A stretch of DNA of 64,000 bases. Origin: Ehretia macrophylla. Taxonomy: Eukaryota; Streptophyta; Magnoliopsida; Boraginales; Ehretiaceae. Each line of letters opens with the position of its first letter. Position 1 is the stretch's first letter. The position numbers and the translations under genes were made by a program. Under the pieces are notes generated by a model that saw only the letters and a list, made by a program, of their open reading frames with translations, was not told the origin of the DNA and ran no database searches. The stretch is from assembly GCA_037974665.1 (NCBI GenBank), contig CM075769.1:24925139-24989138 (forward strand), written 5' to 3'. Below, one piece after another: positions 10,801 through 55,498 of this stretch.

Positions 10801-10889
10801 TGAACGTTCGGGTCCTCGCAGCTAGCATTTAAGATAACACGTAATTAAATGCAATACTATTAAATACATGCCGAGTTCGGGGTATCACA
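7884..10889 (-). repeat. 3' LTR of the non-autonomous element
   Basis: Left copy of the 3006-bp direct repeat. The only difference I noticed from the right copy is 8018 (G) against 12123 (A), and the two have equal length. Minus-strand landmarks: donor-like AAG|GTGAGG at 10135/10134, acceptor-like TTTCAG|G at 8295/8294 and a 9-bp perfect hairpin at 8317-8341. Apparent open frames on both strands occur identically in both LTRs and are not taken as genes. Confidence 0.93.
8317..8341 (-). other. Conserved LTR hairpin (non-autonomous element)
   Basis: TGAGTATAC and GTATACTCA form a perfect 9-bp stem with a 7-nt loop; the right LTR has the same at 12422-12446. It is the positional equivalent of the family A hairpin, with unrelated inner arm sequence that still pairs. 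Confidence 0.75.
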
Positions 10890-10902
10890 TCCTTCCCCCC
10901 TT
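10890..10902 (-). other. Polypurine tract of the non-autonomous element
   Basis: The plus strand reads TCCTTCCCCCCTT, i.e. AAGGGGGGAAGGA in the element's direction, immediately before its 3' LTR. This is the expected site of plus-strand priming. Confidence 0.85.
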
Positions 10903-11974: not shown

Positions 11975-11986
11975 GCTCTGATACCA
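11975..11986 (-). other. Primer-binding site (tRNA-iMet) of the non-autonomous element
   Basis: GCTCTGATACCA on the plus strand is TGGTATCAGAGC on the element strand, matching the complement of the initiator tRNA-Met 3' end. It lies 2 nt from the 5' LTR and fixes the element's orientation. Confidence 0.92.
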
Positions 11987-11988
11987 CT

Positions 11989-14900: not shown

Positions 14901-14994
14901 TGTAATGAACGTTCGGGTCCTCGCAGCTAGCATTTAAGATAACACGTAATTAAATGCAATACTATTAAATACATGCCGAGTTCGGGGTATCACA
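11989..14994 (-). repeat. 5' LTR of the non-autonomous element
   Basis: Right copy of the 3006-bp direct repeat, adjacent to the primer-binding site on its left and to the CTTTC TSD on its right. It is near-identical to 7884-10889. Confidence 0.93.
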
Positions 14995-22812: not shown

Positions 22813-23988
22813 TATTGTCTTTGGGTGTTTGGGTGGTGTTGAGTGATTGAATTTTGTGTTGTTGGAGGTTATACTCGGGTTTGGTTGTGTGGTTTAATGC
22901 TTATTAGATTGGGTGGTCTACTTTGTCATCTAACCTAGTTGTTGGGTTGTTAATTGATTAAATGATATTATGTTGTTGAAATGTTATTAACTAATTGATT
23001 ATTGATGAAGCCGGGAGATAGGCAACCTACTTTGTTGTCCTCCTGTGATATGAATGATTATTATTATTGTCATGAGTCTTAGTATGTATGTACTACCTCT
23101 CAGGCAGCGTTGGGCTGTCGGGTTGATAATGGTATGACTATCATAGACTACTCCCAGCTCGCTTGGGCGGATGTGCCATGGAGGGAGGGGCTAGTGAGGT
23201 ACCTCGGGTGCATGAGTAATTGGGAGTTATAAGAAGATGATTGAGATCGTGATGGCATTTGGAGCTACACCAACCAGAGTATCCTTATTGATTGGTTATT
23301 ATTATTGTTGTGTTTATATTGTTATTAATGTTTATTATGTGTTTACTGCTCAAATGATGATTTCCAAGGAGTATAGTAAATACTTTTAAAAGATCTATCG
23401 AATCCTTACTGGACTTGTTTTATATAAGCTCACTCTCAATTGTTATATACATACAGGTGGTACTGAACTAGAATACAGGTATGTGCCTCAAGAAGATAAG
23501 AATGTGACTTTTGTTGAAGAGTCTTATGTGCCATAGTCATATCCTGATGCTTAGCTGGAATATTGTATACTATGTTGTAGTGTGACTTATGTTGTAGAGT
23601 TTCAAGTTTTTAAAGGTTGTATTGTATAAATTGATCTAAAGATAGTAAAAGTATTATGCTAATTTAGTTGTCTTACTTTTCGTTTTAAATAAGTTTCTAG
23701 GCTAGTATAATATGTTATGTATGTATATGAATTTACTTAGTGATGTATGATGTTGGAACGGAGGCGTATAACTTATGGATGAAATGGTGAAAGAATGTTT
23801 AAAGTATATTTTGGTTGCGTTGTATGTTGCTATCTTGATTGTGGAATTGATTGGTGATTTGTGGAGTTGGTTGTATGAGTTACAAAGAGGTTGGTTTAGA
23901 GCCTCGGAATCTAAGTTACTGTTGTTATATTGCCGAAATTCTGTTGCGTCCTGATTGATCGTAGGTGGGGTCGAGTTGGGGCGTTACA
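22813..23988 (+). repeat. Family B-like LTR, 3' half only
   Basis: Enters mid-LTR and runs to GGGGCGTTACA. Matches the second half of the B-like LTR at 27425-29968: CCTACTTTGTC near 22919, CAACCTACTTTGTTGTCC near 23029, the GGGCTGTCGGGTTGATAA module near 23112 and TATCCTT near 23280. A hairpin lies near 23409-23433, acceptor-like CATACAG|G at 23456/23457 and the short acidic frame at 23457-23536 (RYVPQE, then TFVEESYVP, cut by TAG). The missing first half is expected left of the window, on the other side of A2. Confidence 0.85.
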
Positions 23989-32448: not shown

Positions 32449-34641
32449 TGTAATACCCGAGCCCGGAATGTGAAATTTTCTTGTTATTTATTTTGAAAAT
32501 TATATTTTCTTAGGTTCTTAGAAATCAAATTGTTACTTCTTTATTGTCGCAAAGTGCATTGCATTTCGAGAGAGATAGTTAGAGGGTGTTTTCTAGTCCT
32601 CAACAAATAGTGCAACTAGTATTTTGGTGTCTTAAATTTTATATTTTATTTGTTGTTAGCTAGAATTAATTTGTTGATGGTTATTATAGCTTTAAAATGC
32701 ATAAAAATAGGCAATTTGACCAAATTAAGTTAGGTTGACCAAGTGCTTTGACCATTGACCAAGCTTTTCACCTTATAAGCTTAAAACAATGCAAAATAAA
32801 AAAAAAACAAAAGCTGAAAAACAGAAAGGTGCAGGCCAAAACATAGAGAGAAAAAAAAATTTCAACCTTCTAAACTTCCAATCTTCGCGTGAGCTCGTGC
32901 GGGGTTGTTACCGAGGCATCCATCAAGGTTTTCTTAGCGACTAGGAGTGTCCAAGGTAAGGGAAGCACGTTATTTGCGCATTTGAATAACATGTATATCA
33001 ACTTTATGATTTTTGGATTTTATCCGTAGTTTGTTGTTTTAATCATTTTGATGCTTCAAGAATGTTCCTTGACAATTGTAGAACATGTATTTATAGCTTT
33101 TTAACATTTTCTGCGGTTGAATGTTGAGATTATAAATTAAAATGTCAATTGAATAGTAAAACATGAATAGTAAACCCTCGAAACGTAGAAGTTGCGTTGT
33201 TATGCGTTCTGTTGATGTAGAAAGATGCTAGATATGCTAGAATGCCTAAATGCATAGTTTGTTTAGGTTGCGTAATGGAAAAAATGAGAAAAATGCATTG
33301 GTGAAAGTCGGGGTCGTTTAGGTTGAGTTTAGCGTTTCCTCATTTTGCGTGATGGCATTGTCTCGCCAGGCCATGGAAGCACTTTTGGTGCGGTTATGGT
33401 GTTGGTTGGGTGTTTGGTTAGAGTAGTTGTAATTCAAACGAGCAAAGGGGGAAATCGGGACTTTGCGTGAATTCTAGGGTAAAGTAGGGTTTCGGGGTCT
33501 TTAGATGTGCCTTATGGTGACCTAGGAGGATTGGTGAAGTCGGTTTCCAGAACTAGTGGCTCGTTTGGAAATAGTAGCGTTTTGATAGTTGGGGTCGATT
33601 TGTGATTTTGCTTGTTTTCTTAATGTTATGCATATAGAATGTTTAATATGCTTGTTAGAGTTGATTTTGATTGAAATGCTTATTCAACTATTGCTATTGC
33701 GTGCGAGAATAACCTACTTTGTTATTCTCCCATGTGTGGCTTTATTGCTGGATTGCTCGATTGTTGCATTGTATATTGTGTTACATTCATAGAGTCAGGG
33801 GCGGAGTGATGGGCCTCTCTGGGTAGCCTCAGGTTGCCAGTGTTGGTTGCCCTAGCTCCGTGTCCTATTCCCTTTCTCGCTTGGGTTGCCTCCCAGGGAG
33901 ATTTGGGTCGTAGAATTGATGGATACTTTTGGGGTATTCCAAACTGAAGTTATAAGGTGGTTTGGGCCGGCGCGTCGTCATCGAATTCGTGATTGAAAGT
34001 TTCTCGTGGAAAGAGTATTGTATCCTTTGAATGAGTGTTTATGGTTTTAAAGCTTGTCTTGTTTTATTGTTGGCTTTGCTTGTATCTCTATATGATATTT
34101 GTATGAATTGCTTGACTAATTGCATTGCATTCTCCTCTCATCTGCGTCCTTGAGACCAATTGCCCTCGCTGAGCAATAGTTTTTGCTCATTCCTTTATAT
34201 ACCATATTTTTACAAAAGTAGTTGAAGCTGATCCTGTTGAGGTAATTGAGGATGAGGAGCAAGTGGAGGTGTTTCCTTGATAGCACTTCTTTGCTTAGCT
34301 GGTGGTTGGTTGCCAGACTTTTGTGCGAGCCATGGTTGATGTGTTTAATGCCTGGTCGTCGCTTTATTTTGAGGCTTGTAGCCTTGTATGTAGTTCTAGT
34401 TTGACTGTTTAGTGGCATAAATACTTGTGTAGTATGCATGGCATTTTGGTTTGCAAAGTTGTTAATGAGAAAATGTATATTTTCTAAAAGAAACTTGTCT
34501 TGTTTCAAGTGTATATTATGGTTCGCAAGTATTATATTGATTGTAGAGTTTTCGGATTGTCTACGGTACAGAGGAGACTCCGTCCGTGTGTCGGGTCTGG
34601 GCTTGGCCTTTTGCGGGGTCGGGTCGGGTCGGGGCGTGACA
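32449..34641 (+). repeat. 5' LTR of A3
   Basis: 2193 bp, TGTAATACCCGAG to GGGGCGTGACA. It is 98 bp shorter than the 3' LTR, mostly through one deletion near 34400 that removes the GGCCTTTATGGTC to TAATGGTTAAC stretch. Donor-like AAG|GTAAGG at 32955/32956 is a stronger plant consensus than the GTGAG of the other copies. The acceptor has decayed to ACAAAAG near 34215. The hairpin is at 34170-34189. Confidence 0.94.
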
Positions 34642-34953: not shown

Positions 34954-37900
34954 ATGCTGCCACGTCGTGGTATTCAAGGTCAAGGGGCAGATGAAGAGGC
35001 AGCAGAACAGGGTCAGCAACCGTTGCCTGAACAGTTTATGGCTACTATGACCATAGCAGTTGACTGGATTACACAGGTACTGCATGAGCAGAGGCAGGAC
35101 AAGAATAATAATCCCCAGGGAAATCAAGCTAATCCTGGTGGACAGGGGCACAGGGCTGAGAATAACCAGTTAGAGAAATTCCTGAGGCACGAGCCGAGTA
35201 AGTTCTTTGTAGAGCCGGATGATGAGGCAGCTGAGAGATGGATTAATCATGTTGAGAAAATTTTCGCTACTTTGAGGTACACTGATGAGGCAAGAATGGA
35301 TTGTGCGGCATTCCTGTTTGAGGGTGATGTAGAGCAGTGGTGGAACACGGTTAGGTTGAGGTGGGATTATGAGGATGTTCCGCATTTATGGGATGATTTC
35401 GTGAGCGAGTTTCGGGATAAGTATATTCCCGAGATGGCTAGGGAAAGGCGGGAAGATGAATTTGTGGCCCTGAAGTAGGGAAACATGACTGTTGCACAGT
35501 ATGAGGCTAGGTTTGTTAGCCTGTCGAGGTATATGCCCGAGCTGGTACAGCCAGCTAGGAGGATGATTCATAGGTTTGTTCGTGGGCTGAAAATGGATAT
35601 TCAGCTACATTTGACTGGGCAGACCTACACTACTTTTCTCGAGGCATTCCAAGCAGCCTCGAAGTTTGAGAAACGGAAGGCTGAGATGATAGCTAAGAGT
35701 AGTCAGCCGAGTAAGAAACAGTATTTGGGCCAGAGCAGCCAGAGTCAGCCGAGGTAGTATCAGACTTCTGCGCAGGTTCCTCAGCAACGTCCGTATCAGC
35801 CTCAGTATTAGATTCAGGGGAGGCCAGCTATGACTAGACGCCAGCAGGGAGCTATAGTTCCTATTACTGCCAGAGCCCCTGCGCCTACGGGAAACACTGT
35901 TGTAAGACAAAATCAGCAGTGTAACTTTTGTAATCGATCGGGGCACGTTGAGGCTAATTGCTGGAGGAAGAGTGGTAAGTGCACTGGTTGTGGGAGTGAT
36001 GATCATAGGGTGAAAGATTGCCCTATGTATAAGAATGTTCAGGGCCGTACTGGAGGCCAAGGTGTGCAGAATAGGGCTGTAGGTGCAGGTCCAGCACAGA
36101 GGGTACATGCTAGGGTCTTTGCACTAGATGCGGAGGAGCTACCCGATACTACAGCTATAGTGGAAGGTACCTTTCTTCTCAATACTCAGCCAGTTAAAGT
36201 TTTGATTGATTCCAGAGCTACACATTCGTTTATAACTCCTGCATGTGCACGATCTGTGAATGTTTGCATTGATAAACTGCTACATGAAGTTGAAGTTAGT
36301 ACGCCTTTGGGTGCGAAATTTGTTACTGAGTCTATTTGCAAATCTTGTGATATATGCATCGAGAACCATAAATTTCCTGCTTATTTAATTATACTACCCT
36401 TCCATGACTTTGAAATCATTTTGGGAATGGATTGGTTGGGGAAATACTATGCTCAGTTGGATTGTAGAACAAAAATTGTTTATCTTCAGATTCCTGACCT
36501 ACCGGTACTGGAGATTGTTGGGAACTGCAAGGCTGCCCGAATACCTCTTTTATCATCAATCAAGGCTTCTAAGTTGTTGAATAAAGGTTGTGAAGCTTAC
36601 TTAGCTTATCTGATCAATCAACCTACTGATAAGTTGAATTTGAATGAGGTTCCGATTGTTAAAGACTTCCCTGGTGTATTTTCCGAGGAGTTACCAGGTT
36701 TACCACCGGATAGGGAGATTGAATTTGTGATTGACCTTATGCCAGGCACTGCGCCAATTTCTAGAAGTCCTTATAGAATGGCATCGGCTGAACTTCAAGA
36801 ATTGAAAATTCAGCTTCAGAACTTGCTTGAGAAAGGGTTTATACAACCTAGTTCTTCATCATGGGGTGCACCTATGTTGTTTGTGAGAAAGAAGGACGGC
36901 ACGCTTCGGTTATGTATTGATTATAGGGGACTTAATCAAGTCACGATTAAGAACAAATACCCCTTGCCGTTGATTGAAGAATTGTTTGACCAGTTGCAGG
37001 GTGCGAGTGTTTACTCCAAATTTGACTTGAGGCAGGGTTACTATCAACTCAGGATTCGGAGTGACGATATACCTAAGACGGCATTCAGGACTAGATATGG
37101 CCACTATGAATTTGTTGTGTTACCGTTTGGATTGACGAATGCACCAGCCGCATTCATGGACTTAATGTAGAGGGTTTTTCGACCTTATCTTGATCAGTTT
37201 GTCGTAATCTTTATTGACGACATTTTAGTGTACTCTAAGAATGAGGCTGAACATGAACAACATTTGAAGATTGTGCTACAGACTTTGCAAGAGAACAAGC
37301 TTTTTGCAAAATTCAGCAAGTGTGAATTCTGGTTGAATCAAATATCTTTTCTAGGCCATATCATTTCAGATCAAGGAATTTCTGTAGACCTAGCTAAGAT
37401 TGAAGTTGTTTCGTCTTGGAAGAGGCCTGAAACGGTGTCAGAGATTCGGAGTTTTCTAGGTTTGGCAAGTTACTATCGGAGGTTTGTTAAAGATTTTTCT
37501 AAAATTTCTGGACCTTTAAGCCAGTTGACCCGAAAGAAAGTTACTTACAACTGGGATGCTAAATGTGAATCCAGTTTCCAAGAACTGAAGAAGAGACTAA
37601 CTACAGCCCCTATACTAGCTTTACCTAAGGGTATAGAAAACTTTGTTGTCTACAGTGATGCATCTAAAGAAGGTTCGGGCTGTGTTTTAATGCAGAATGG
37701 TAAGGTGATTGCCTATGCTTCTAGGAAGTTGAAACCTTATGAAGTCAATTACCCTACACATGATCTTGAGTTAGCTGCAGTTGTGTTTGCTTTAAAGAAG
37801 TGGCGTCATTACTTGTGGGGTGGCAGATTTGAAATTTTTACTGACCACAAGAGTCTCAAATATTTATTTTCACAAAAGGATTTGAATATGAGGCAGTGAA

Positions 37901-39573
37901 GATGGCTTGAGCTATTAAGTGGCTACAATTGCTCTATAAACTACGTGCCAGGTAAGGCAAATGTTATTGCGGATGCTTTGAGCCGAAAGGCTACTGTTGC
38001 AAGTTTAATTATCAAGGATTGGGAGACTTTGGAAGAAATTTGTTCATGGAAGCCAGAAGTTACTGAGGTAGGGATTTGATTTGCTAGCTTACAAATTCAG
38101 TCGGGATTGCTAGCACAAATCAGGGAGGCACAGAAGACTGATCCTCACATCTTGAAAATCCAAGAAAAAGCAAAAGGGGGAGTGTCGGAGTTTAAATTAC
38201 ATGCATATGGTATCTTTAGATTCAGGGACAGAGTGTGTGTTCCTGGTGATCCGACTTTGAAGAATGAGATTATGTCCGAGGTACATAATTCAAGATATAC
38301 GATTCACCCGGGCAGTACTAAAATGTATAGAGATCTGAAACAACACTTCTGGTGGAACAATATGAAGAGGGAGATTGCTGGGTATGTATCCAGGTGTTTA
38401 ACTTGTCAGAGGGTTAAAGTTGAGCATCAGAGGCCAGCCGGGCTTCTGCAACCGTTGTCGATTCCGCAATGGAAATGGGTGCATATAACAATGGACCTTG
38501 TGACCGATCTTCCTAGATCTCCGAGAGGATGTGATTATGTTTGGGTTGTTGTGGACCGATTGACTAAGGTATCACACTTTATTCTCATGAACAAACAGGA
38601 TAGTCTTGATAAACTAGCTAAGCTTTATGTTGCTCATATTGTGAGACTTCATGGTGTGCCGTAGAGTATAGTGTCAGATAGAGATCCTAGATTTAGATCT
38701 CATTTTTGGCAGAAGTTGCAAGAGGCTATGGGAACTAAATTGAGCTTCAGTACTGCATACCATCCACAAACTGATGGCCAGTCTGAGAGAACTATCAGGA
38801 TCTTGAAAGACATGCTTCGGGAATATGTGTTAGACTTTGGGAAGAATTGGGAGAAGTTTTTTCCTTTAGCGGAGTTCGCCTATAATAATAGTTATCAATC
38901 TACTGTAGGTATGGCTCCCTACGAGGCGTTGTACGATCGTAAATGCAGATCCCCATTATATTGGGAAGAGGTTGGAGAGATGAGAACAGTTGATCCGACT
39001 GTGTTACCTGAGATGATTAAGATGATGGATAATGTTCATCTTATTCGCCAGCGTATGTTTACACCTCAGAGTCGTCAGAAGAGTTATGCAGATAAGTATC
39101 ATCGGGATCTTGAGTTTGATTTGGGAGATTGAGTGTTTCTTAAGATTTCTCCTCAAAAGGGATTGATTCAGCATGGTAAGAGCGGGAAACTTAGTCCCAG
39201 GTATGTGGGTCCGTATGAGATCACCGAAAAGGTAGGTCTTTTGGCTTATCGGTTAGCTTTACCTCTGAGCTTGTCAAGACTGCACGATGTTTTCCACGTA
39301 TCAATGTTGAGGAAATATCATCTAGATCCTTCACATGTACTTGAACCAGAGCCTTTGTAGATTGAGGAGAAGTTGACTTATGAGGAAAAACCGATTCGAA
39401 TTGTGGATCGAAAAGTTCAGGAACTTCGCAGGAAGAGAATTCCGCTAGTAAAGGTTATGTGGAATCATCATGGGTTTGAGGAAGCGACTTGGGAAAGAGA
39501 GGACCAGGTTCGGAATCAGTATCAGGAGTTGTTTGTTGACCAGGTAAGAATTGCGTGGGCGCAATTGTTTTAA
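34954..39573 (+). pseudogene. gag-pol: A3 gag-pol, one frame with nine premature stops
   Basis: A single register from ATG 34954 to TAA 39571-39573, about 1540 codons. Gag has the WW...DEF...TVAQYEARF pattern of the retrotransposon gag domain and two CCHC knuckles ([28 protein letters not shown]). The protease motif is [10 protein letters not shown], with the DSG glycine replaced by Arg. RT has [12 protein letters not shown] and FIDDIL. RNase H, the integrase HHCC finger, the integrase D-D-E residues and a chromodomain-like tail follow. Stops: TAG 35476, TAG 35755, TAG 35809, TAG 37168, TGA 37897, TGA 38077, TAG 38662, TGA 39130 and TAG 39358 (first bases). Comparison with sister copies or context suggests CAG, CGA, CGG or TGG originally. 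No frameshift. Confidence 0.95.
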
Positions 39574-39584: not shown

Positions 39585-41875
39585 TGTAATACCTGAGCCC
39601 GGAATGTGGAATTTTCTTGTTATTTATTTTGAAAATTATATTTTCTTAAGTTCTTTGAAATCAAATTGTTATTTCTTTATTGTTGCAAAGTGCATTGCAT
39701 TTCGAGAGAGATAGTTAGAGGGTGTTTTTTAGTCCTCAACAAATAGTGAAACTAGTATTTTGGTGTCTTAAATTTTATATTTTATTTGTTGTTAGCTAGA
39801 ATTAATTTGTTGATGGTTATTATAGCTTTAAAATGCATAAAAATAGGCAATTTGACCAAATTAAGTTAGGTTGACCAAGTGCTTTGACCATTGACCAAGC
39901 TTGTCACCTTATAAGCTTAAAACAATTCAAAAAACAAAAAAAAACAAAAGCTGAAAAATAGAAAGGTGCAGGCCGAAACATAGAGAGAAAAAAAAATTTC
40001 AACCTTCCAAACTTCAAATCTTCGCGTGAGCACGTGCGGGGTTGTTACCGAGGCATCCAGCAAGGTTTTCTTAGCGACTAGGAGTGTCCAAGGTGAGGGA
40101 AGCATGTTATTTGCGCATTTGAATAACATGTATATCAACTTTATGATTTTTGGGTTTTATCTGTAGTTTGTTGTTTTAATCGTTTTGATGCTTCAAGAAT
40201 GTTCCTTGACAATTGTAGAACATGTATTTATAGCTTTTTAACATTTTCTGCGGTTGAATGTTGAGATTGTAAAATAAAATGTCAATTGAATAGTAAAACA
40301 TGAATAGTAAACCCTCGAAACGTAGAAGTTGCGTTGTTATGCGTTCTGTTGATGTAGAAAGATGCTAGATATGCTAGAATGCCTAAATGCATGGTTTGTT
40401 TAGGTTGCGTAATGGAAAAATGAGAAAAATGCATTGGTAAAAGTCGGGGTCGTTTAGGTCGAGTTTAGCGTTTTCTCGTTTTGCATGATGGCATTGTCTC
40501 GAGAGGCCATGGAAGCACTTTTGGTTCGGTTATGGTGTTGGTTGGGTGTTTGGTTAGAGTAGTTGTAGTTCAAACAAGCAAAGGGGAAAATCGGGGCTTT
40601 GCGTGAATTCTATGGTAAAGTAGGGTTTCGGGGTCTTTAGACGTGCCTTATGGTGACCTAGGAGGATTGGTGAAGTCGGTTTCCAGAACTCGTGGCTCGT
40701 TTGGAAATAGTAGCGTTTTGATAGTTGGGGTCGATTTGTGATTTTGCTTGTTTTCTTAATATTATGCATATAGAATGTTTAATATGCTTGTTAGAGTTGA
40801 TTTTGATTGAAATGCCTATTCAACTATTGCTATTGCGTGCGAGAGTAACCTACTTTGTTATTCTCCCACGTGTGGCTTTATTGCTCGATTGCTCGATTGC
40901 TCGATTGTTGCATTGTATATTGTATTGCATTCATAGAGTCAGGGGCGGAGTGATGGGCATCTCTGGGTAGCCTCAGGTTGCCAGTGTTGGTTGCCTTAGC
41001 TCCGTGTCCTATTCCATTTCTCACTTGGGTTGCCTCCCAGGGAGATTTGGGTCGTAGAATTGATGGATACTTCTGGGGTATTCCAAACTGAAGTTATAAG
41101 GTGGTTTAGGCCGGCGCGTCGTCATCGAATTCGTGATTGAAAGTTGCTCGTGGAAAGAGTATTGTATCCTTTGAATGAGTGTTTATGGTTTTAAAGCTTG
41201 TCTTGTTTTATTGTTGGCTTTGCTTGTATCTCTATATGATATTTGTATGAATTGCTTGACTAATTGCATTGCATTCTCCTCTCATCTCCGTCCTTGAGAC
41301 CAATTGCCCTCTCTGAGCAATAGTTTTTGCTCATTCCTTTCTATACCATATTTTTACAGGAGTAGTTGAAGCTGATCCTCTTGAGGTAATTGAGGAGGAG
41401 GAGCAAGTGGAGGTGTTTCCTTGATAGCACTTCTTTACTTAGCTGGTGGTTGGTTGCTAGACTTTTGTGCGAGCCATGCTTGATGTGTTTAATGCTTGGT
41501 CGTCACTTTATTTTAATGCTTGTAGCCTTGTATGTTGTTCTAGTTTGAGGCCTTTATGGTCTTTTGTTGTAAAAGTTTAAAGGATTGTAAAGTTGTAAAG
41601 TTATACTCACGTGACAAGTAAAGAATTGCATACTAATGGTTAACTGTTTAGTGGCATAAATACTTGTCTAGTATGCATGACTTTTTGGTTTGCAAAGTTG
41701 TTAATGAGAAGATGTATATTTTCTAAAAGAAACTTGTCTTGTTTCAAGTGTATATTATGGTTCGCAAGTATTATATTGATTGTAGGGTTTTCGGATCGTC
41801 CACGTTACAGAGGAGACTCCATCCGTGTGTCGGGTCTGGGCTTGGCCTTTTGCGGGGTTGGGTCGGGGCGTGACA
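39585..41875 (+). repeat. 3' LTR of A3
   Basis: 2291 bp ending GGGGCGTGACA, followed by the GACCA TSD. Both putative splice sites are intact: CCAAG|GTGAGG at 40092/40093 and TTTTTACAG|G at 41359/41360, a 1267-nt interval. The acidic short frame follows (VVEADPLEV, then EEEEQVEVFP and TGA near 41422). A small ATTGCTCG triplication lies near 40882-40905, where the 5' LTR has fewer units. Confidence 0.94.
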
Positions 41876-42120: not shown

Positions 42121-42997
42121 TGTAACAACCCGATCCTTCACAAGACCGGAGCCTCGATCCAAAAACCATGGTCACAAAAAATAAGGGAAAACGGACGAAG
42201 TCTGCTCTTTTTATAAGATTATCCAATTACCAATATTTAGAAGAAATAGCAACAAACTATAAACCATCATTCACAACCAACCCCAACTTTTAACATCGCA
42301 ACAACCTTCAATCCTCTTGGCCATCCGAGCCCTTCTATTTCCACAAACTATAACATACAGGCATGCATTCATTAACTGTTGAAGTTCTATGTTTATAATT
42401 TCATTTATCATACCACTCTAATATTTTCTATTTAACTTTCTTATAATTTAAGTCATCAACCATCTTTCTCTTAATCCCACACAAGCATGCAGGTTAAACT
42501 TAGACAACAAAGTAAAACATTAAAGTTATTACATATCCACTACAACTATTTAATCATACAAATCTTTCAGCTCATATTACATTCCCTCAGATAACATAAA
42601 TACATGCAATTTTGAAATATCAATATACTTTACATCACAACACATAAAAACACTCATCCACAGCTACAAGCATGCAATGAAGCCTCTGAACTCCCTCTAG
42701 GGATCCAGTTACTTGTATACCTGTAAAATATTAGAAAGGAAGGGTGAGCATACAATATATGTATACTCAATGAGGGAGGGAAACAGTCAACCGGGGAGAT
42801 TTTTTAAAACATTTTCGTGCAGTGAAACCAATAATCGCAAGTTTAACAATAATACAAGTCAACAAGTAAATAACCAACTATATTCAATTCAATAAAAAGA
42901 ATATCGATCGATAGCCCTTATCCCTCCAATTCCTTGAACCACGAACTTGATCTCAAACACGATATGCCGGCATCCTTTTACACTAATGGGTACTCCG
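42121..42997 (-). repeat. Family C LTR (minus), outer segment
   Basis: Starts TGTAACAACCCGATCC and runs to TACTCCG at 42997, where element B1 is inserted; it resumes at 52881. Minus-strand landmarks: the hairpin arms TGAGCATACA (42745-42754) and TGTATACTCA (42760-42769) and acceptor-like TTTACAG|G near 42720. At 53586 it is interrupted again by a B-like LTR, so its far end is not in view. Confidence 0.85.
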
Positions 42998-43764
42998 TGT
43001 GAAACCCCACTTTTCTGCTTTAACTTGATTTACGTGCTTTGTCTCGTTTTGCGTGCATATGACCTGTTTATGTGCTATAGGGCCTAGAATGTTATAATTT
43101 TGATATCAATACTCCTAATACATGCTAAATGTGCATTCATAAAATTTTCATCAAAAACGGAGTCAGAAATTTTATCGTCGATTTTCAATGAATAGTATTT
43201 TCGAAACACGTCCGCTAAAATTTTGAAACTAGTCTTTTTAACCATTCTAGACCTAGTCCACGGACTTTAATAGACCTGTGTTTGATGAAAACGGTTTTAA
43301 AATCGGCTTAAGAATTTATGAGGGTTTTTTTACTGACTTTTGCGAAAATCGAGTTTTAAGCCGACTCGGGTGAAATTGTTTGATTGTAAAACTTCTTGTC
43401 ACCTAAAAATAATTTACTTGAGCTAGCTTGGGTGTTGAATAATTGTTTTGAACTTTGGTGATCAAGAAAATGCATTTAAAGTCAAGAAAACACAAAAAAA
43501 TGCTAAGTTTCAACTTTGACTTTCATTTAAATGGTTGACCAACAAGCTTATATCACCAACACACACTCACAAAGCACAAACACACCCACAATTGCACACA
43601 CATTGCCGAGAGGGATAAGAGAGAAAAGAGAAAAGAGATTTCAAGGTTTTCAAAGCAATTTTTCAAAGAAAAAGCTAGTTTTTGTCCGTAGAATTTCGTG
43701 CCAACTTGGATTCCGCTTGTTGGGCACGCCTTGCACGCATTCCTAGGCTTTTATCGCATCAAAG

Positions 43765-44927
43765 GTGAGAGAAAAATTCTGGATCTCAAAAGTTGTCTTT
43801 TACATTTTTGCGTATAAATGAAAATCGAATCGTTAGAATTCTAATCTGATGTTAGATTATTTTTCCTTGCATGCTAGGGATCACTTAGCTGTAATACTGC
43901 GAGTTTTTATCGGTTGTAGCATAATTTTTATTTTTCGAGTATTTAAATTTGATTAATTTGTTCAATGTTGATTAAATTGAGTTGTGTTGATCGGAATCGA
44001 TTGCCGTCGATTTCTAAATGTTTGATAATTACGTGGTAGCGCCGTTGTAATGCCGAATTTTCGATTATGATGTTTGGGTGAAAATCCAAAAAATTCAGCC
44101 TTGACACCTTAGGGTTTTAGGGTTATCGGGCAAGCTTTGGAAGAATTATGATGGTTTTTCTAGGGGGTGATTAGTTGGTTGAATGGGTGAGTGATAGAAA
44201 CTGGTTTGGCGTTGTTTGGATTAGTAGAATGTAAGATATGATTATTTGAAGTTAGGTTGTCTTTCTTTAAAATGCTAGATCGAGCCTTAGTTGATTGGGT
44301 GTGGGTTGAGTGATTGAATGGTGAGTTGTTGACGGGTAAATTAGGGATTGATTGTGTGTTTAATGCATGTTCGGTTAGATGGCCTACTTTGTCATCTAAC
44401 TTAGTTATATGTTGTTTAATTGGTTATTGATGTTATTATGATGATAATATGATTATTGATGATTATTGATTGATGATTGATGCCGGGAGATAAACAGTTC
44501 TGATAGACTGTCCTCCTGTGAATGATTGATGTTTATTATTATTGCTGGGTCTCTGGTATATGTGTGCCACCTCTCGGGCAGCATTGGGTTGTCGGGTTGA
44601 TAACGGCATGACTATCAGAGATTGCCTCCAGCTCGCATGACGGAGGAGTCATGGAGGGCGAGGTTATTGGGGGTACCCCGGGTGCATGAGTTTATGGGAG
44701 TCACAAGAAGGCTGTTATGATCGTGATGGTGTTTGGAGCTACACCAACTAGAGTATCCTTTATTGAATGGTCATATAGTTATGTGATGATTTTATTATTG
44801 TTGTTATTGTGTGTTTACTGACTCAAAGGATTATTCCAAGGAGTTAAGTAGACCTTGCTCGAGATCTATCGGATCCTCACTGGGCTTATTTTCTATAAGC
44901 TCACTCTCTATTATTGCATGCATACAG
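43765..44927 (+). other. Possible intron inside the B1 5' LTR
   Basis: 1163 nt between CAAAG|GTGAGAG and CATACAG|G. The same pair of sites at equivalent positions is found in families A and C and in the non-autonomous element, with lengths of 1.2-1.8 kb. Splicing is inferred only. Confidence 0.4.
44881..44903 (+). other. Conserved LTR hairpin (family B)
   Basis: TGGGCTTAT and ATAAGCTCA pair over 9 positions (one G-T pair) with a 5-nt loop, 24 nt before the acceptor-like CAG. Confidence 0.75.
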
Positions 44928-45028
44928 GTGTACTTTTGCAGGATTACAGGTACGTGCCTCCTGAAGAGGAGAATGTAGAAAACGTGCCTTACGTGGATGA
45001 GTCCTATGTTCCAGAGTCTTATCCGTGA
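44918..45028 (+). CDS. Candidate 36-aa LTR peptide (family B)
   Basis: If read from ATG 44918, this is a 36-codon frame: MHTGVLLQDYRYVPP, then EEENVEN, then VPYVDESYVPESYP and TGA at 45026-45028. It is acidic and Tyr/Pro-rich, with no signal peptide or membrane segment. The part after acceptor-like CAG|G (44928 on) is conserved in four other B-type LTRs in this window, with third-position changes and an exact three-codon length difference. The ATG is also present in the solo copy (5482-5484) but not in the B-like copies, so the frame may instead be the last exon of a spliced message. Function unknown. Confidence 0.35.
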   Translation: MHTGVLLQDYRYVPPEEENVENVPYVDESYVPESYP

Positions 45029-45446
45029 TGTCGTACATGTTTTATTATCTTGTAAATTAACTTAGTAGACTTTTATCTGCTTTGTAGTTTATAATGTATA
45101 AGATGTTGATAAGTTAATGAATTAGTTGATGTTGTCTTAGTAGCCTTTATTTTGTTTATGATTAGGTTGCTAGATTGGCTCAATATGTTTTTGTATTGTA
45201 TATTAAGGTTTATGTATTATGTTGGAACGGAGGCGTATAACGAGAAATGGTTATTGTATAATATAGTTATGATGTATGTTGTATTTATTGAGGAGTTATT
45301 TGTTGTATGGTTGTGGAGTTGATGTATGTTGTTCTATTGAGGTTGGTTTAAGACCTCGGTATCCTATTTACTGTCGTTATACTGCTGAAATTCCGTTGCG
45401 TCCTGACTGATTATAGGAGGGGTCGAGTTGGGGCGTGACATTTAAG

Positions 45447-45717: not shown

Positions 45718-48700
45718 ATGGCCGGTCGATTGAGAACCAGAGGTAGGCCTGAGATGATTGATGATACTCCGAGTAACGCAGCACCGGGCCGTGATAGGGA
45801 TGATGACCGATTGGGGGCAGCTATGGAGAGGATTGCAGAGTTAGTGGCTAGTCAGGCACAGTTATTAGCAGGGCAGGCTGCCCAGAATCAGGTTATGCAG
45901 GCTCAGCTACTGAATATTCAGGGTGGTAATCACTGGCGTGGTACCCTGAAGGAGTTCTTGTGATATCATCCACCGAGATTTCAGGGGGAGCCGGACGATA
46001 GGAAGGCGGAGGTATGGATTATCAAGTTGGAGAAGATTTATGATCCACTTGGCTATACTGATGAGCAGAAAGTCTCTTTTGCCGTGTACTTGTTAGATGA
46101 TGAGGCAGAGGAGTGGTGGTGCACGGTAAGGACTAGCTGGGCGGCACAGGGTATTCCTTATGTTTAGGGTACCTTTCTGATGGCTTTCTGGGCAAAGTAT
46201 GTCCCGAGGATTGCGAGGGAACGGAGAGAGGCAGAGTTTCTAGCCTTGGTACAGGGAGATGCTACAGTGGCTCAATATGAGGCCACATTTACTCGATTGT
46301 CCCGGTATGCACCGGAGTATGTGGCAGACGAGGAGCAGAGGACTCGTAGGTTCATGTTGGGGTTGAGGCCCGAGATTCAGGATGTGATGGCTCTAAATCG
46401 GTATGATATTTTCACTGAGGCTTTTGAGGCAACTTCTAGACTAGAGAAGAGAAAAGGGGACTAGCTTGTGTCTAGTCAGCCTAGTAAGAAGCCGTATCAG
46501 CTGCAGTATTAGCAGGGTGTGTATAGGCCTCCCGTACAGCAGGTTAGGTTCAGGCCACCAGCACAGCAGGGTTCTTTTAGGCCACAGGGGCAGCAGAGTT
46601 ACTATCGGCCTCAGTTTCAGCAGGGGCCATATCAGGTTCAGTCCCAGTTTAGGCCAGCCCAGTCTCAGGGTCAGTACAGGCCTAGTTTGGTAAGGCCTCA
46701 GCAGTAGCAGGCTAGATCAGCTGTTTCTTCAGCTCCTGGTTCTTCTAGGGGCAGTGTTAGTGCATCATCATCGCAGTGTACACACTGCAACCGCACGGGG
46801 CATGTGGAGGCCGATTGCAGGGTGAAAGTAGGGACGTGGTTAGGTTGCAGTAGCAATTAGCATAGGGCGAGGGATTGCCCTAGGTATGCGAGGACTGAGG
46901 GTCGGACAGCGACTCAGGGTTATCAGGGCCGACCTGCAGCCAGTGCACCTCAGCAGCAGCAGCGGGTTCAGGCTCAGGCCTACGCAGTTGACTTAGAGGA
47001 GATGCCTGAGGAGACTGCAGTTGTGGAAGGTAACTTCCTTATACTTGATCAACTTGTTAAAGTGTTGATTGATTCTGGTGCTACGCATTCTTTCATTACT
47101 CCTGAAAGATTGCCTTATGTGGTTGAGATTAGTACCTCTTTGACTGATAAGTATGTGACTGGCCTAGTTTGTAAGGATTGTATAATACATGTTAAGGGGC
47201 ATAATTTTCCTTCGGACCTTATCTTATTTCCTATTCGGGGGTATGATGTTATCTTGGGTATGGATTGGCTTTCTAAGTATGATGCCCAGTTGAACTGTAG
47301 AACCAAGGTAGTACAGTTTCGTTTGCCAGATCAGCCAGTAGTTGAGGTAGTAGGGAATCGGGGTGCAAAGACGAGTTTTGTTATCTCAGTAACTAAAGCC
47401 GTTAAGTTGGTGAGTAAGGGGTGTTCGGGTTATCTAGCTTATTTGATCAACAAGCCATCTGATAAACTACAGCTAGAGGAAGTCCCTATTATTCAGGAAT
47501 ATCCCTATGTATTTCCCGAGGAGTTGCCAGGGTTACTGCCAGAGAGAGATGTGGAATTTGTGATCAATCTTATTCCCGGTACTCAACCTATTTCTAAATC
47601 AGCGTACCAGATGGCACCAGCTGAGTTGAAGGAGTTGAAGACTCAGTTACAGGAGTTATTGGAGAAGGGATTCATTCAGCAGAGTTCTTCACCTTGGGGA
47701 GCTCCTGTTTTGTTTGTGAAGAAGAATGATGGTACCTTGAGATTGTGTATTGATTACCGTGGTTTGAATCAGGTGACCATCAAGAACAAGTATCCTTTGC
47801 CACTGATTGAAGAGTTGTTCGATCAACTTCAGGGAGCCAAAGTATATTCTAAATTTGATTTGAGGCAGAGGTATTATCAGCTTCGGATTCGCACGGAGGA
47901 TGTTCCGAAGTCTGCCTTCAGGACTCGGTACGGGCATTATGAGTTTGTTGTTATGCCCTTTGGATTAACTAATGCACCAGCAGCATTCATGGATCTTATG
48001 CATCGGGTTTTTCAGCCGTATTTAGACCAGTTCATGGTAATCTTTATTGATGATATCTTGGTCTATTCTAAATCTGAATCGGAGCACGAGCAACATCTAC
48101 GGCTTGTATTAGAGAAGCTGCAGGAGCATCAGTTGTTTGCCAAGTTCAGCAAATGTGAATTTTGGCTGCAACGCATATCTTTTCTTGGCCATGTTATTAC
48201 ACAGAGCGGTATTTCTGTAGATCCCATTAAGATTGAATCGGTGATGTCTTGGAAACGGCCAGAGAATGTTTCTGAGGTCCGTAGCTTTCTTGGCTTGGCA
48301 GGTTATTACCGTAGGTTTGTCAAGGACTTTTCGAAGATTGCTGGGCCACTTTCTAAATTGACTCAGAAACGGACTATCTTTAATTGGGATGAGAAGTGTG
48401 AGAGTGGGTTTCAGGAGTTGAAAAAGAGGTTGACTACTGCTCCAGTACTTGCTCTACCAGAAGGGACCGATAATATGATTATTTACAGCGATGCATCCAA
48501 GGAGGGCTTGGGATGTGTTCTTATGTAGGATGGCCGAGTTATTGCTTATGCTTCCCGGAAGTTGAAGCCTTATGAGGTGAATTATCTGACTCATGATCTT
48601 GAGTTGGCAACAGTTGTCTTCACACTGAAGAAGTGGCGTCATTATCTGTAGGGCAGTAAGTTCGAGATTTTCACTAATCATAAGAGTCTGAAGTACTTGT

Positions 48701-50511
48701 TCTCACAGAAGGAGTTGAATATGCGCCAGCGGAGATGGATGGAGCTTCTTGGAGATTATAATTGTTCTATCAATTATCTGCCTGGCAAGGCAAATGTTGT
48801 AGCAGATGCTCTTAGTCAGAAGGCGAGTATCTCTTGTTTGGCTGTCAAGAAGTGGGAGATTCTTGAGGAATTCACTTATTGGAGACCGGAGTTGACTCAG
48901 GTTGGGGTGATGTGTTCACATCTCCGTATTCAACCTTTATTGTTGTCTCAGATCAGGGAAGCTCAGTAACTTGATGTTAAACTTCAGAAGATCAAGGATC
49001 AGATCACGGATGATCAGTCTGACTTTATACTGCATGAGGATGGTATTCTTCGATTTCGGAACAGGGTTTGTGTTCCCGATGAACCGGGCTTGAGGCAAGG
49101 TATTTTGGAGGAAGCTCATAATTCTAAATACACTATTCATCCCGGTGGAACAAAGATATATCGGGATTTGAAGCAACATTACTGGTGGAATAATATGAAG
49201 AGGGAGGTTGCTCAGTTTGTATCTAGATGTTTGACTTGTCAGATGGTGAAAGCTGAGCATCAACGACCAGCAGGTCTGCTTCAGCCGTTGGCTATACCAC
49301 AGTGGAAATGGGAGCATATTACGATGGACTTCGTCACTGGTTTACCTAGAACACCGAGGGGTAATGATGCAGTTTGAGTTGTCATGGATCGTTTGATAAA
49401 GACAGCTCATTTCATTTCGATGAGGATGGGAGATGAGGTTACAAAGTTGACGGGTCTTTATTTGGATCAAATTGTTAGACTTCACGGTCTTCCATCTAGT
49501 ATTGTCTCAGATCGAGATCCTCAATTTACTTCTCGTTTGTGGGAGAAACTTCAGGAGACCTTGGGTACTCAGTTGAACTTCAGTACCGCGTATCATCCGC
49601 AGACTGACGGTCAGTCAGAGCGGACTATTCAGATTCTGGAAGATATGCTTAGGGCTTGTGTTTTGGACTTCGGGAAGAACTGGGAGAAACATCTACCACT
49701 TGCCGAGTTTGCCTATAACAATAGTTATCAAGCTACTATTGGGATGACACCTTTCGCAGCTCTTTACAGTCGTAAGTGCCGTTCACCTTTATATTGGGAC
49801 GAGGTAGGAGAGATGAAGACTATTGATCCCACTATCATGCCAGAGCTTCTTGAGAAGATCGAGAATGTTCAGTTGATCAGGCAGAGAATGCTTACGGCGC
49901 AGAGTAGATTCAAGAGTTATGCTGATAAGCGTCGTCGGGATTTGGAGTTTGCAGTCGGAGATCGGGTTTTCTTGAGATTATCTCCTCGTAAGGGGTTTGT
50001 TCGTTATGGTAAATGTGGAAAGCTGAGTCCGAGATTTGTTGGGCCGTTTGAGATTACCGACAGGGTTGGTAAGTTGGCATATCGGTTGGCTTTACTGGAG
50101 AACTTCTCTAATGTCCACGATGTATTTCACGTGTCTAATTTGCGAAAATATAATCCAGATCCTTCTCATATTCTTGAGCCAGAGCCGTTACAACTTCGTG
50201 AGAATCTGACTTATGACGAGCATCCGATTCGTATTCTTGATCAGCTGGAACGAGAGTTGAGGTCGAAGAAGATTCCGATGGTTAAGGTGTTGTGGAAGCA
50301 TCACGGTATCGACGAAGCTACTTGGGAGAGACGGGATCAGATGCAGCAGCAGTACCCAGATCTGTTCAGTACATCAAGTAAGAATTTCGAGTGCGAAATT
50401 TCTTTAAGGGAGGGAGAATATGAAACCCCACTTTTCTACTTTAACTTGATTTACGTGCTTTGTCTCGTTTTGCATGCATATGACCTGTTTATGTGCTATA
50501 GGGTCGCCTAG
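45718..50511 (+). pseudogene. gag-pol: B1 gag-pol, one frame with ten premature stops
   Basis: A single register from ATG 45718. Gag has the EEWW...AEFLALVQGDATVAQYEATF pattern and a Gln-rich linker. CCHC knuckle CTHCNRTGHVEADC is intact; the second has lost one Cys (CSSN). Protease [10 protein letters not shown] is intact. RT has [12 protein letters not shown] and FIDDIL. RNase H, integrase (HHCC; D-D-E with MDFVTGLP, SDRDPQF, GQSERT) and a chromodomain-like tail (HHGIDEATWERRDQ) follow. Stops (first bases): 45961, 46165, 46462, 46510, 46705, 46858, 48526, 48649, 48967 and 49375, each one transition from CAG, CAA, CGA or TGG. No frameshift. The frame runs through the hairpin and polypurine tract into the 3' LTR, ending at 50511. 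Confidence 0.95.
50383..50418 (+). other. Pre-PPT hairpin and polypurine tract of B1
   Basis: AATTTCG (50383-50389), loop AGTG, CGAAATT (50394-50400): a perfect 7-bp stem. Family A has G and C where B1 has T and A at the fourth stem pair, so the pair is kept by compensatory change. AAGGGAGGGAGAA follows before the LTR. Confidence 0.85.
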
Positions 50512-52875
50512 AATGTTATAATTTTGATATCAATACTCCTAATACGTGCTAAATGTGCATTCATAAAATTTTCATAAAAAACGGAGTCAAAAATTTTATC
50601 GTCGATTTTCAGTGAATAGTATTTTCGAAATACGTCCGCTAAAATTTTGAAACTGGTCTTTTTAACCCTTCTAGACCTAGTCCATGGACTTTAATAGACC
50701 TGTGTTTGATGAAAACGGTTTTAAAATCGGCTTAAGAATTTATTAGTCTTTTTTCACCGACTTTTGCGAAAATCGAGTTTTAAGCCGACTCGGGTGAAAT
50801 TGTTTGATTGTAAAACTTCTTGTCACCTAAAAATAATTTACTTGAGCTAGCTTGGGTGTTGAATAATTGTTTTGAACTTTGGTGATCAAGAAAATGCATT
50901 TAAAGTCAAGAAAACACAAAAAAATGCTAAGTTTCGACTTTGACTTTCATTTAAATGGTTGACCAACAAGCTTATATCACCAACACACACTCACAAAGCA
51001 CAAACACACCCACAATTGCACACACATTGCCGAGAGGGAGAAGAAAGAAAAGAGAAAAGAGTTTTCAAGGTTTTCAAAGCAATTTTTCAAAGAAAAATCT
51101 AGTTTTTGTCCGTAGAATTTCGTGCCGACTTGGATTCCGCTTGTTGGGCACGCCTTGCACGCATTCCTAGGCTTTTATCGCATCAAAGGTGAGAGAAAAA
51201 TTCTGGATCTCAAAAGTTGTCTTTTACATTTTTGCGTATAAATGAAAATCGAACCGTTAGAATTCTAATTTGATGTTAGATTATTGTTCCATGCATGCTA
51301 GGGATCACTTAGCTGTAATACTATGAGTTTTTATCGGTTGTAGAATAATTTTTATTTTTCGGGTATTTAAATTTGATTAATTTGTTCAATGTTGATTAAA
51401 TTGAGTTGTGTTGATCGGAATCGATTGCCGTCGATTTCTAAATGTTTGATAATTACATGGTAGCGCCGTTGTAATGCCAAATTTTCGATTATGATGTTTG
51501 GGTGAAAATCCGGAAAATTCAGCCTTGACACCTTAGGGTTTTAGGGTTATCGGGCATGCTTTGGAAGTGTTATGGTGGTTTTCCGAGGGGGCTAATGTAG
51601 TTGGTTGAATGGGTGAGTGATAGAAACTTGTTTGGCGTTGTTTGGATTAGTAGAATGTAAGATATGATTATTTGAAGTTAGGTTGTCTTTCTTTAAAATG
51701 CTAGATCGAGCCTTAGTTGATTGGGTGTGGGTTGAGTGATTGAATGGTGAGTTGTTGACGGGTAAATTAGGGTTTGATTGTGTGTTTAATGCATGTTCGG
51801 TTAGATGGCCTACTTTGTCATCTAACTTAGTTATATGTTGTTAAATTGGTTATTGATGTTATTATGATGATAATATGATTATTGATGATTATTGATGATT
51901 ATTGATTGATGATTGATGCCGGGAGATAAACAGTTCTGCTAGACTGTCCTCCTGTGAATGATTGATGTTTATTATTATTGCTGGGTCTCTGGTATGTGTG
52001 TGCCACCTCTCGGGCAGCATTGGGCTGTCGGGTTGATAACGGCATGACTATCAAAGATTGCCTCCAGCTCGCATGATGGAGGTGTCATGGAGGGCGAGGT
52101 TATTGGGGGTACCCCGGGTGCGTGAGTTTATGGGAGTCACAAGAAGGCTGTTATGATCGTGATGGTGTTTAGAGCTACACCAACTAGAGTATCCTTTATT
52201 GAATGGTCATATAGTTATGTGATGATTTTATTATTGTTGTTATTGTGTGTTTACTGACTCAAAGGATTATTCCAAGGAGTTAAGTAGACCTTGCTCGAGA
52301 TCTATCGAATCCTCGCTGGGCTTATTTTATATAAGTTCACTCTCTATTATTGCATGCATACGAGTGTACTTTCGCAGGATTACGGTACGTGCCTCCTGAA
52401 GAGGAGAATGTGGAAAACGTGCCTTACGTGGATGAGTCCTATGTTCCAGAGTCTTATCCGTAATGTCGTACATGTTTTATTATCTTGTAAATTAACTTAG
52501 TAGACTTTTATCTGCTTTGTAGTTTATAATGTATAAGATGTTGATAAGTTAATGAATTAGTTGATGTTGTCTTAGTAGCCTTTCTTTTGTTTATGATTAG
52601 GTTGTTAGATTGGCTCAATATGTTTTTGTATTGTATATTAAGGTTTATGTATTATGTTGGAACGGAGGCGTATAACGAGAAATGGTTATTGTATAATATA
52701 GTTATGATGTATGTTGTATTTATTGAGGAGTTTTTTGTTGTATGGTTGGGGAGTTGATCTATGTGGTTCTATTGAGGTTGGTTTAAGACCTCGGTATCCT
52801 ATTTACTGTCGTTATACTGCTGAAATTCCGTTGCGTCCTGACTGATTATAGGAGGGGTCGAGTTGGGGCGTGACA
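50419..52875 (+). repeat. 3' LTR of B1
   Basis: 2457 bp, colinear with the 5' LTR. Its first dinucleotide is TA instead of TG. Differences from the 5' LTR include an extra ATTGATG-type unit near 51884-51910. The CAG|G acceptor is lost (CATACGAG near 52358), and a one-base loss in the short acidic frame (TACAGG to TACGG near 52382) destroys it. The 5' LTR keeps both intact. Confidence 0.95.
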
Positions 52876-53585: not shown

Positions 53586-55498
53586 TGTCACGCCCCAACT
53601 CGGCCCCATTTACGATCAGTCAGGACGCAATGAAATTTTGGTAATATAACGTTTGTAACATGGACAACTGGACTCTAAACCAATCCTTTAAATCATCACA
53701 CAACCAACTTTAAACTTCAGGAACCATTTCAACAACATACATACATTCACACCCCACATTATACAACCATACAACATCCTAACCACAAGTTATATGCCTC
53801 TATTTCAACAACATATCTCAAGCTATAATATACATATGCATAATAGATATAAAACTAGTCTAGCAACATATTCATTTCCAAAAGTAAGACTACTACACTA
53901 GCATTATACTTTTCACTATCTTTAAAGCATTTTATACGATACAACCTTTAAAACTTTAAACATTACAATATATTTCATATTATAGAACAACATAGAAGCA
54001 TTCCAGCAAAGGCATCAAGGACAAGACTCTTGCACATTTGACTTGTCCACATAAGGCTCGTACTCAGTCTCCTGAGGCACGTACCCTAAATCCAACTCGG
54101 TAACACCTGAAAGTCAGCAAAGAGGGTGAGCTTATATATAACAAAGCTCAGCGAGGGTTCAAAAGATGTTTTGGAAATATTTTCTCTTTACCACTTGAGA
54201 AATCATCCTAGATACAATAACAATCAATAAACTTCATCAACATCAACAATTCAATTCAAGCATCATAAATAACCATTCAGTTGAGAAATGATACTCTAAT
54301 TAGTGTAGCTCCATACGGCGTCATGATCTCAACCAACTTTTAATAACACCCAATAATACATTCCGAAAGTACCTCATCTAGCCCCTCCCTCCATGGCATC
54401 TCCGCCCATGTGAACTGGGGGTAGTACATGATAGTCATGTCATTTTCAACCCGACAGCCCGACGTTGCCCGAGAGGTGGCACACACTATCATGACTCATG
54501 ATAATAACATTAAACATTTCATATTCCGAGAAACAACAAAGTAGGTTGTTCCCCGGTACAACAACAATCACTAATCAATTAACAGTACTTCAATCAACAT
54601 AACATTAATTAAACAACTAAGACAACCAAGTTAGATGACAAAGTAGGCCACCCAACCTAACACACATTTCAACATGCTTCCAAACCCAAACCTACTTTCC
54701 AACAATTCATGAAACAACCACTCAAACACCACCCAACAACCAAAGACAACATTTTAGCATTTCAAAAAAAGAGTACAAAAACTTCTAAAATTCATAACTT
54801 ACAATCTACTAATCAAACAACCCCCGAACCTTTTCCTATCACTCCATCACACATGCAACTACATTAACCCCCTCGGAAACCAACTAAAAGCCATCCAAAA
54901 CAAGCCCAACAAACCTAATTTTGGCAATGCACATTGGCTGAATTTTTTGACCTTTTCCTATGGCATTCAAATTAAAAATTTGGCATTACAACATTACTAC
55001 ACAATAATTAACAAGCCTATAGAAGCAACAACCATTCAATTCTAACTACTACAACAACAATTATTCAAATATAAGCCAATAAATTAATTTAAATGCTCAA
55101 AAATTAGAAATACATGATACTACCGTTCAAAATGGCTATAAATGCATATAATTGGTCCTTGTCACCTTCTAAGCAATAATCTAACATCAATTTAACAAAA
55201 TAACAACTAACAATGCATCAACCAAAAACTCAACTCAACTTTGAAATAATGAACTATATTTTTTCCTCACTTTGATGCCAAATGATGTTAGGAATGTGTA
55301 GAATGGATGCCCAACAAGCTATTGCAAACTTTGAATGACAAGATTTGGCCTTGAAATGAAGATTTGCCTTGAAACTTTGCTTGAAAACCTAAGTAAAAAT
55401 TCTCTATTTTCTCTCCCAAGGCTTACGGCAATGTGTGTGAGTTTTTAGTATGTTTTATGTTTTTTTTTCATATAATATGTATGTATAAGGTATATATT
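53586..55498 (-). repeat. Family B-like LTR (minus), truncated
   Basis: Starts TGTCACGCCCCAACTCGG and matches the B-like solo LTR (27425-29968) on the opposite strand. Minus-strand landmarks: acceptor-like TTTCAG|G at 54107/54106, a 92-nt short frame to TGA 54015-54017, a hairpin near 54130-54153 and donor-like AAAG|GTGAG near 55268. The outer several hundred bases are missing where a family C LTR starts at 55499. Confidence 0.88.
54015..54106 (-). other. Short acidic reading frame after the LTR acceptor site (B-like, minus)
   Basis: On the minus strand, after TTTCAG|G, reads VTELDLGYVPQETEY, then EPYVDKSNVQESCP and TGA. Same 92-nt length as the copy at 29499-29590. A TGA three codons upstream in frame means it cannot extend leftward without splicing in this copy. 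Confidence 0.38.

Follow-up and report, generated by a model that had tools for sequence, protein, structure and literature searches.

Ty3/gypsy elements of the window

The window, a 64,000-nt stretch of Ehretia macrophylla contig CM075769.1, is a nest of Ty3/gypsy elements within a host genome of 1.58 Gb (20 contigs). LTR pairs, a primer-binding site (PBS), gag, protease and integrase in gypsy order and a polypurine-tract (PPT) hairpin are all present, as in plant Ty3/gypsy LTR retrotransposons, and TGGTATCAGAGC, after the LTR, is taken as the tRNA-Met PBS. Among Pfam profiles, RVP_2 (in two pieces) and SH3_Tf2-1 scored over their cut-offs and rve scored below its own. We take the clade to be, probably, that of the Tekay/Del chromoviruses, an assignment made from the pol end and the PPT rather than from a tree; the chromodomain profile had no match in 49378-50377.

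LTR families are designated by letters: A and B follow a previous sequence-only reading of this DNA, C is nested in the window, and D to H come from other parts of this genome. The full B1 element has its 5' LTR at 42996-45440 (+) and its 3' LTR, 96.7% identical, at 50417-52875 (+), with both sets of ends approximate. The family C element at 7884-14994 (-) is non-autonomous and very young, with 3006-nt LTRs of 99.97% identity, GAAAG flanks and a 1.1-kb internal part in which no gag or pol frame was seen. Across 42990-45445, which spans the B1 5' LTR, Rfam at gathering scores returned no match, and TATA-like words in the LTR were too numerous for a promoter to be chosen. Hairpin-like words (CCTCC..GGAGG) lie at 44540-44720, upstream of the word GTATCCTT, in an outline common to the B LTRs; this block, which has no Rfam match, is possibly a structured RNA.

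An acidic frame in one phase inside the LTRs

The B- and A-type LTRs contain an acidic stretch of open frame, in one phase, that begins two bases past CAG/G (the slash marks a splice-like boundary) and sits about 1.9 kb inside the LTR. The sequence-only reading had reported a common peptide ending in five B LTRs, and all five stretches read as it claimed. The B1a exon (44928-45028, +) reads (G)VLLQDYRYVPPEEENVENVPYVDESYVPESYP and a stop in phase 1, directly behind an acceptor-like CAG read at 44925-44927 (+). The B2 exon (5374-5474, -) reads (G)VAEPDYGYVPPEEENVENVLYVDESYVLESYP and a stop, the B3 exon (29499-29590, +) reads VTEPDFRYVPQEAEYVPFVEESYVPESYP and a stop behind CAA, the B4 exon (54015-54106, -) reads VTELDLGYVPQETEYEPYVDKSNVQESCP and a stop, and the B5 exon (23457-23536, +) is cut by a TAG. 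Most of 20 fetched B3 relatives have a CAG acceptor. The 9-nt difference between the 101-nt and 92-nt copies, three codons, was also recovered. A sixth B copy, absent from the earlier list, lies in the 3' LTR of the B1 element (B1b, about 52364-52463, +), with a 1-nt deletion and CGA as its acceptor.

Family A had been credited with an acidic frame in the same phase as B, and this holds at four A LTRs, whose exons lie at 4418-4482 (A1), 22298-22362 (A2, acceptor CAA), 34216-34280 (A3, acceptor CAA) and 41360-41424 (A4), all on the plus strand. Their frames, from 4420, 22300, 34218 and 41362, read VVEADP[L/I/V]EVI[E/K][E/D]EEQVEVF[P/L] and a stop; the A1 version is VVEADPLEVIEEEEQVEVFP and a stop. 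In several old copies (B3, 29496-29498; B1b, 52361-52363; A2; A3) the acceptor CAG has decayed, to CAA or to CGA, and CAA is the outcome expected of methylated CHG decay.

A search of the genome with RVP_2 (150 scored of 21584 candidates) led to three further exon-bearing LTR families, E, G and H. All three show the same layout: the GTATCCTT word, a hairpin, an acceptor-like site, a phase-1 acidic exon of 19-27 codons and a stop. Family E has TTTTTCATCACAG/GT and then EEEQVQVPEDNVSNDEPLE and a stop in both LTRs of one element. Family G has ACAATTTTTTAG/GA and then EAEVEPVIGTQVEGDAYLCDETDFCLL and a stop, downstream of a family G protease whose position suggests that LTR and protease belong to the same element. 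Family H has ATGTTTCAG/GA and then EAEVNPQLLEVEKEEEVHVDQNP and a stop, in an LTR with gag and pol downstream of it. One locus each represents G and H. The exon phase is identical in the five families A, B, E, G and H, and the tail sequences vary widely from family to family.

A loose scan for an acceptor-like site with a short acidic phase-1 frame returned, in about 26 kb around families D to H, six sites in addition to the three exons; in the window such sites occur at a rate of 0.13-0.19 per kb. The E, G and H exons differ from the six other sites by their position behind the GTATCCTT word and hairpin. The acidic exon has been lost from non-autonomous family C, whose LTR at 7884-10889 (-) retains the hairpin, the GTATCCTT word and the acceptor and reads GYSQRKCSS and a stop, and from family D, whose LTR is short (1.19 kb) and reads TTTACAG/GT TTT TAG at the matching place. 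For family F, no LTR exon was found within the 6.45 kb fetched downstream, where the PPT was not located either. Among genome copies taken as best matches, and for that reason biased to young ones, frame and stop are whole in 29/30 (B1), 16/21 (B3), 30/30 (A) and 19/21 (E).

Coding constraint within the LTR

The exon is under coding constraint. Over three independent pairs of copies (A1-A4, B1a-B2 and B3-B5), changes fall at the three codon positions as 8/10/27, so that the third position takes 27 of the 45 (P 2e-4), in line with the previous remark that several differences were at third positions. The corresponding pN/pS is 0.21 (Fisher P 3.6e-8), a constraint that ranks the segment with LTR-encoded protein; the dN/dS near 1 that had been proposed as evidence against a conserved peptide is thus not seen between families and subfamilies. 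Substituting B3-B4 for B3-B5 gives 8/10/26, 0.25 and P 9e-7. All 7 differences between A1 and A4 are synonymous; for the B pairs alone the third-position share gives P 0.011 or 0.018, and pairwise ratios across all B pairs range from 0.19 to 0.70.

LTR windows elsewhere were biased as much as the exon in 0/1761 cases for A1-A4, 5/740 for B3-B5 and 43/603 for B1a-B2, and the last pair by itself therefore carries little weight. An earlier window scan with other pairings gave 0/2008 for A and 0/841 and 0/854 for two B choices, and failed for one pairing, B1a-B2 plus B3-B4 (87/798). A codon-position scan of the A LTR detected, besides the exon, weak windows only (5/6 and 9/13 changes in one position). 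Within subfamilies the third position is not favoured (for B3, 6/4/5 in informative columns and 12/5/4 in singletons), a pattern that post-insertion decay of dead copies would produce.

A candidate donor at the Gag/protease boundary

GT dinucleotides were compared among families A, B and H, first in some 250 nt of gag and then from the gag end to about the RNase H/integrase border. This comparison, which stopped short of the H pol end, a place where a further phase-1 donor-like site is present in B and E, found GT in all three families at 57 of 177 alignable A GT sites. Among these 57, the site at the Gag/protease boundary, in phase 1, has a minimum score of 7.2 against 3.5 for the next best. 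It reads AAG/GTACCT in A, AAG/GTAACT in B and AAG/GTATTT in H, with the GT 41 nt upstream of the catalytic Asp codon. In the window it lies at 47027-47035 (+; GT at 47030) in the B element, at 36164-36172 (+; GT at 36167) in the A3/A4 element and at 17103-17111 (+; read directly) in the A2 copy. At the level of sequence, the elements thus have what shGAG-type RNAs require, a donor-like site near the gag end whose use would remove the protease, and AAG/GTA is the best conserved of the 57.

All 20 copies of a first fetch have AAG/GTA; in the pooled set (36 segments parsed of 40) GGT is present in 36/36 and the preceding GAA in 34/36, numbers that correspond to about six or seven independent families because many copies are closely related. 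Of nine four-fold codons compared among five family representatives, the donor GGT alone is invariant, and with another choice of five one valine codon is likewise invariant; the donor's conservation is partly forced by the encoded amino acids, E-G-T/I/N. Wherever the site is intact in A, B, E, G and H copies, joining donor and exon would make the split codon a glycine codon, GGT or GGA. In family D the donor AAG/GTATTT is present although the LTR has no acidic exon, and the donor word is thus able to persist without the exon. Genome searches for family A gave 0 matches both for a processed Gag/exon junction (up to 3 mismatches) and for an A exon without intron-like upstream sequence; family A thus offers no fossil of a spliced RNA, although such counts are lower bounds and retrocopies may be rare. 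A Gag search of a protein collection returned three matches, of which two are Salvia Gags, uninformative because they are distant and end unlike the tail.

The elements share the exon phase, conserved donor-like and acceptor-like sites and a covarying hairpin. From these sequences we infer that the LTR segment is probably a coding terminal exon, spliced in the 3' LTR part of the transcript onto Gag from a phase-1 donor. A fraction of the element RNA would be spliced from AAG/GTA, which splits a glycine codon at the Gag/protease boundary, to CAG/G in the 3' LTR, and protease, reverse transcriptase and integrase would be taken out. The resulting mRNA is predicted to encode a Gag ending ...VEG, then the acidic tail (VVEADPLEVIEEEEQVEVFP in A) and a stop. 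An element with a single gag-pol frame could in this way make Gag in excess of Gag-Pol, and the distinct acidic C-terminus would mark the Gag-only molecules. Family C, in which no gag or pol frame was seen, keeps hairpin and acceptor yet has lost the acidic frame, which we count in favour of a terminal exon.

The same coding exon might instead be joined to the end of pol, from CA[A/G]GTAAGA or a similar donor before the PPT hairpin, so that the tail would be carried by integrase/Pol and not by Gag, or by both; we regard this as unlikely. Four families, A, B, D and E, do have such a donor-like word, GTAAGA or GTAATA, after the end of pol, in phase 1 in B (CAA/GTAAGA, 50375-50383, +), D and E, and it is absent, like the acidic exon, from non-autonomous family C. 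In A, however, the site (CAG/GTAAGA, 39541-39549, +) is in phase 0 and would yield only QE and a stop, though the constraint on the A exon is in phase 1; because of this misfit the pol-end donor leaves the constraint in A unaccounted for. The elements may use it alongside the donor at the Gag/protease boundary. A further phase-1 candidate at the integrase C-terminus (B 50009, equivalent to A 39176; scores 8.5 and 9.2) was rejected, family E having GC for GT.

A covarying hairpin upstream of the putative acceptor

Six families (A, B, C, E, G and H) share a TGRG..CTCA hairpin whose end lies some 25 nt upstream of the acceptor. In the B1a LTR it occupies 44881-44903 (+), TGGGCTTAT..ATAAGCTCA, and its 3' arm contains CTCAC, a branch-point-like word; in general the 3' arm carries CTCAY, a fair branch-point word. 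Across seven representatives of the six families, 49 of 49 pairs form despite differing bases; when the arms were re-dealt 10000 times, 8 of the re-dealings did as well. One pair is broken in B5. The minimum-energy fold includes the hairpin in A1, A4, B1a, B2, B3, B4, C, E and G, and lacks it in B5 and H. With a branch-point-like word held in a stem so close to the acceptor, the hairpin may damp splicing, so that genomic RNA would survive. An alternative acceptor in B1a, TTTTGCAG/G (exon at 44942), was discarded: it is in the wrong phase and is not kept there in B2-B5.

Further upstream, GTATCCTTT lies at 44753-44761 (+) in the B1a LTR, 175 nt from the acceptor, and GTATCCTT is found 120-229 nt upstream of the acceptor-like site in seven families (A-E, G and H). 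U12-type introns have an RTATCCTTT donor and a TTCCTTRAY branch site near the acceptor, and we take GTATCCTT to resemble the U12-type 5' splice site. An intron entirely within the LTR, running from this word to CAG/G behind an upstream LTR exon, would account for the recurrence of the word at this distance and for the intervening stretch, which is T-rich to the eye. We nevertheless consider it very unlikely: a TAG stands directly before the word, in the required frame, in five of six B copies (B5 has CAG), neither the LTR translations nor the codon-position scan of A revealed a coding upstream exon, and C and D, which have no acidic exon, retain the word. By eye, no TTCCTTRAY-type branch word was found within 75 nt upstream of the acceptors, the donor-like word being present in seven families.

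Proposed entry into the exon by splicing

The exons are rich in GAA and GAG, as would befit a purine-rich splicing enhancer or another cis-acting sequence that is not translated. Such an element would need no reading frame, whereas the changes observed are synonymous and at third positions, and between A1 and A4 five of seven do not exchange one purine for another; this explanation is highly improbable.

The sequence-only reading had proposed either a mini-protein or a terminal exon. The second part of this proposal gains from a constraint that starts at the acceptor, a shared phase and a matching donor; the first part fails on its start, which is not conserved. A free mini-protein or upstream ORF translated from a leader ATG would fit B1a and B2, the only copies with an in-frame ATG a few codons upstream. 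In A1, A4, B3, B4 and B5, however, no in-frame ATG occurs between the last stop and the exon, the frame upstream of the acceptor is interrupted by stops in B2 and B4, and conservation begins only at CAG/G. With no conserved start codon, translation from an ATG was rejected, and its probability is in our estimate slight indeed. Because constraint begins at CAG/G and no start codon is shared, the exon would have to be entered via splicing, and its reading as a terminal exon is well supported by sequence comparison. That an open frame arose by chance and was retained through shared ancestry is barely credible: the LTR copies are related, B1a-B2 is weak alone and the loose scan turned up six more sites than the three exons in about 26 kb, but five families have the same phase and acidity right behind the same word and hairpin, such sites number only 0.13-0.19 per kb in the window, and pN/pS is 0.21.

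Relation to spliced Gag RNAs and LTR-encoded proteins

Gag must exceed Pol, and for plant gypsy elements that have a single gag-pol frame the means to this excess is, to our knowledge, largely unsettled. Protein-coding sequence lies within the 3' LTR in the cases of MMTV Sag and HIV Nef, which are animal-retrovirus proteins, in contrast to the short tail exon proposed here for a plant element. In CRM centromeric retrotransposons the coding end of pol extends into the 3' LTR; CRM reads through at the LTR start, whereas the present exon would be spliced and lies deep inside.

Spliced gag RNA is known for copia elements (excerpts of PMC3735527 and PMC12786077). In barley BARE1 (Ty1/copia), alternative splicing at the gag end yields an RNA encoding only Gag, similar to the message proposed here; the BARE1 intron differs in being 104 nt long and within the coding region, with a stop three residues past Gag, and the excerpts of PMC3735527 describe no LTR exon or conserved tail. 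The shGAG RNA of Arabidopsis EVD/EVADE, also of the copia superfamily, is likewise a Gag-only message with the protease domain spliced out and a stop shortly past the junction, which in EVD arises by frameshift in the coding region (excerpts of the review PMC12786077). The short RNA of Drosophila copia becomes a Gag message by removal of about 2.9 kb of pol, and an LTR-encoded tail is not mentioned in the excerpts of PMC3735527. The CERV of C. elegans Cer1 (Ty3/gypsy) has polyprotein-frame exons spliced to a downstream exon at a TTTCAG acceptor (excerpts of PMC10309623). Searches of an open-access library yielded excerpts of PMC7730604, PMC12786077, PMC3735527, PMC10309623, PMC6317226 and PMC9784723, and a coding exon inside a plant LTR is not described in them. 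What would be new relative to the Gag-only RNAs of BARE1, EVD and copia is an acceptor inside the LTR together with a conserved tail.

It seems to us an evenly balanced question whether a major plant gypsy lineage generally codes in its LTR, with a hairpin-controlled terminal exon giving spliced Gag an acidic C-terminus that is absent from Gag-Pol. If so, the Gag excess of single-frame gag-pol elements would be explained, and many LTRs regarded as non-coding would carry a selected protein segment. A selected LTR coding exon offers a concrete route to this excess, for which one exact junction should appear in RNA and the peptide should be detectable; it would also make LTRs unsafe as neutral clocks across their full length.

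A hairpin at the polypurine tract

Immediately 5' of the polypurine tract, A, B and C have a hairpin of the form AATTNCG..CGNAATT whose bases covary (50383-50400, 39549-39566, 2613-2630 and, on the minus strand, 10898-10925). A search of viral contigs for the PPT pattern gave 0 matches. The GTAAGA word adjoins this hairpin in A and B, and C has the hairpin without GTAAGA.
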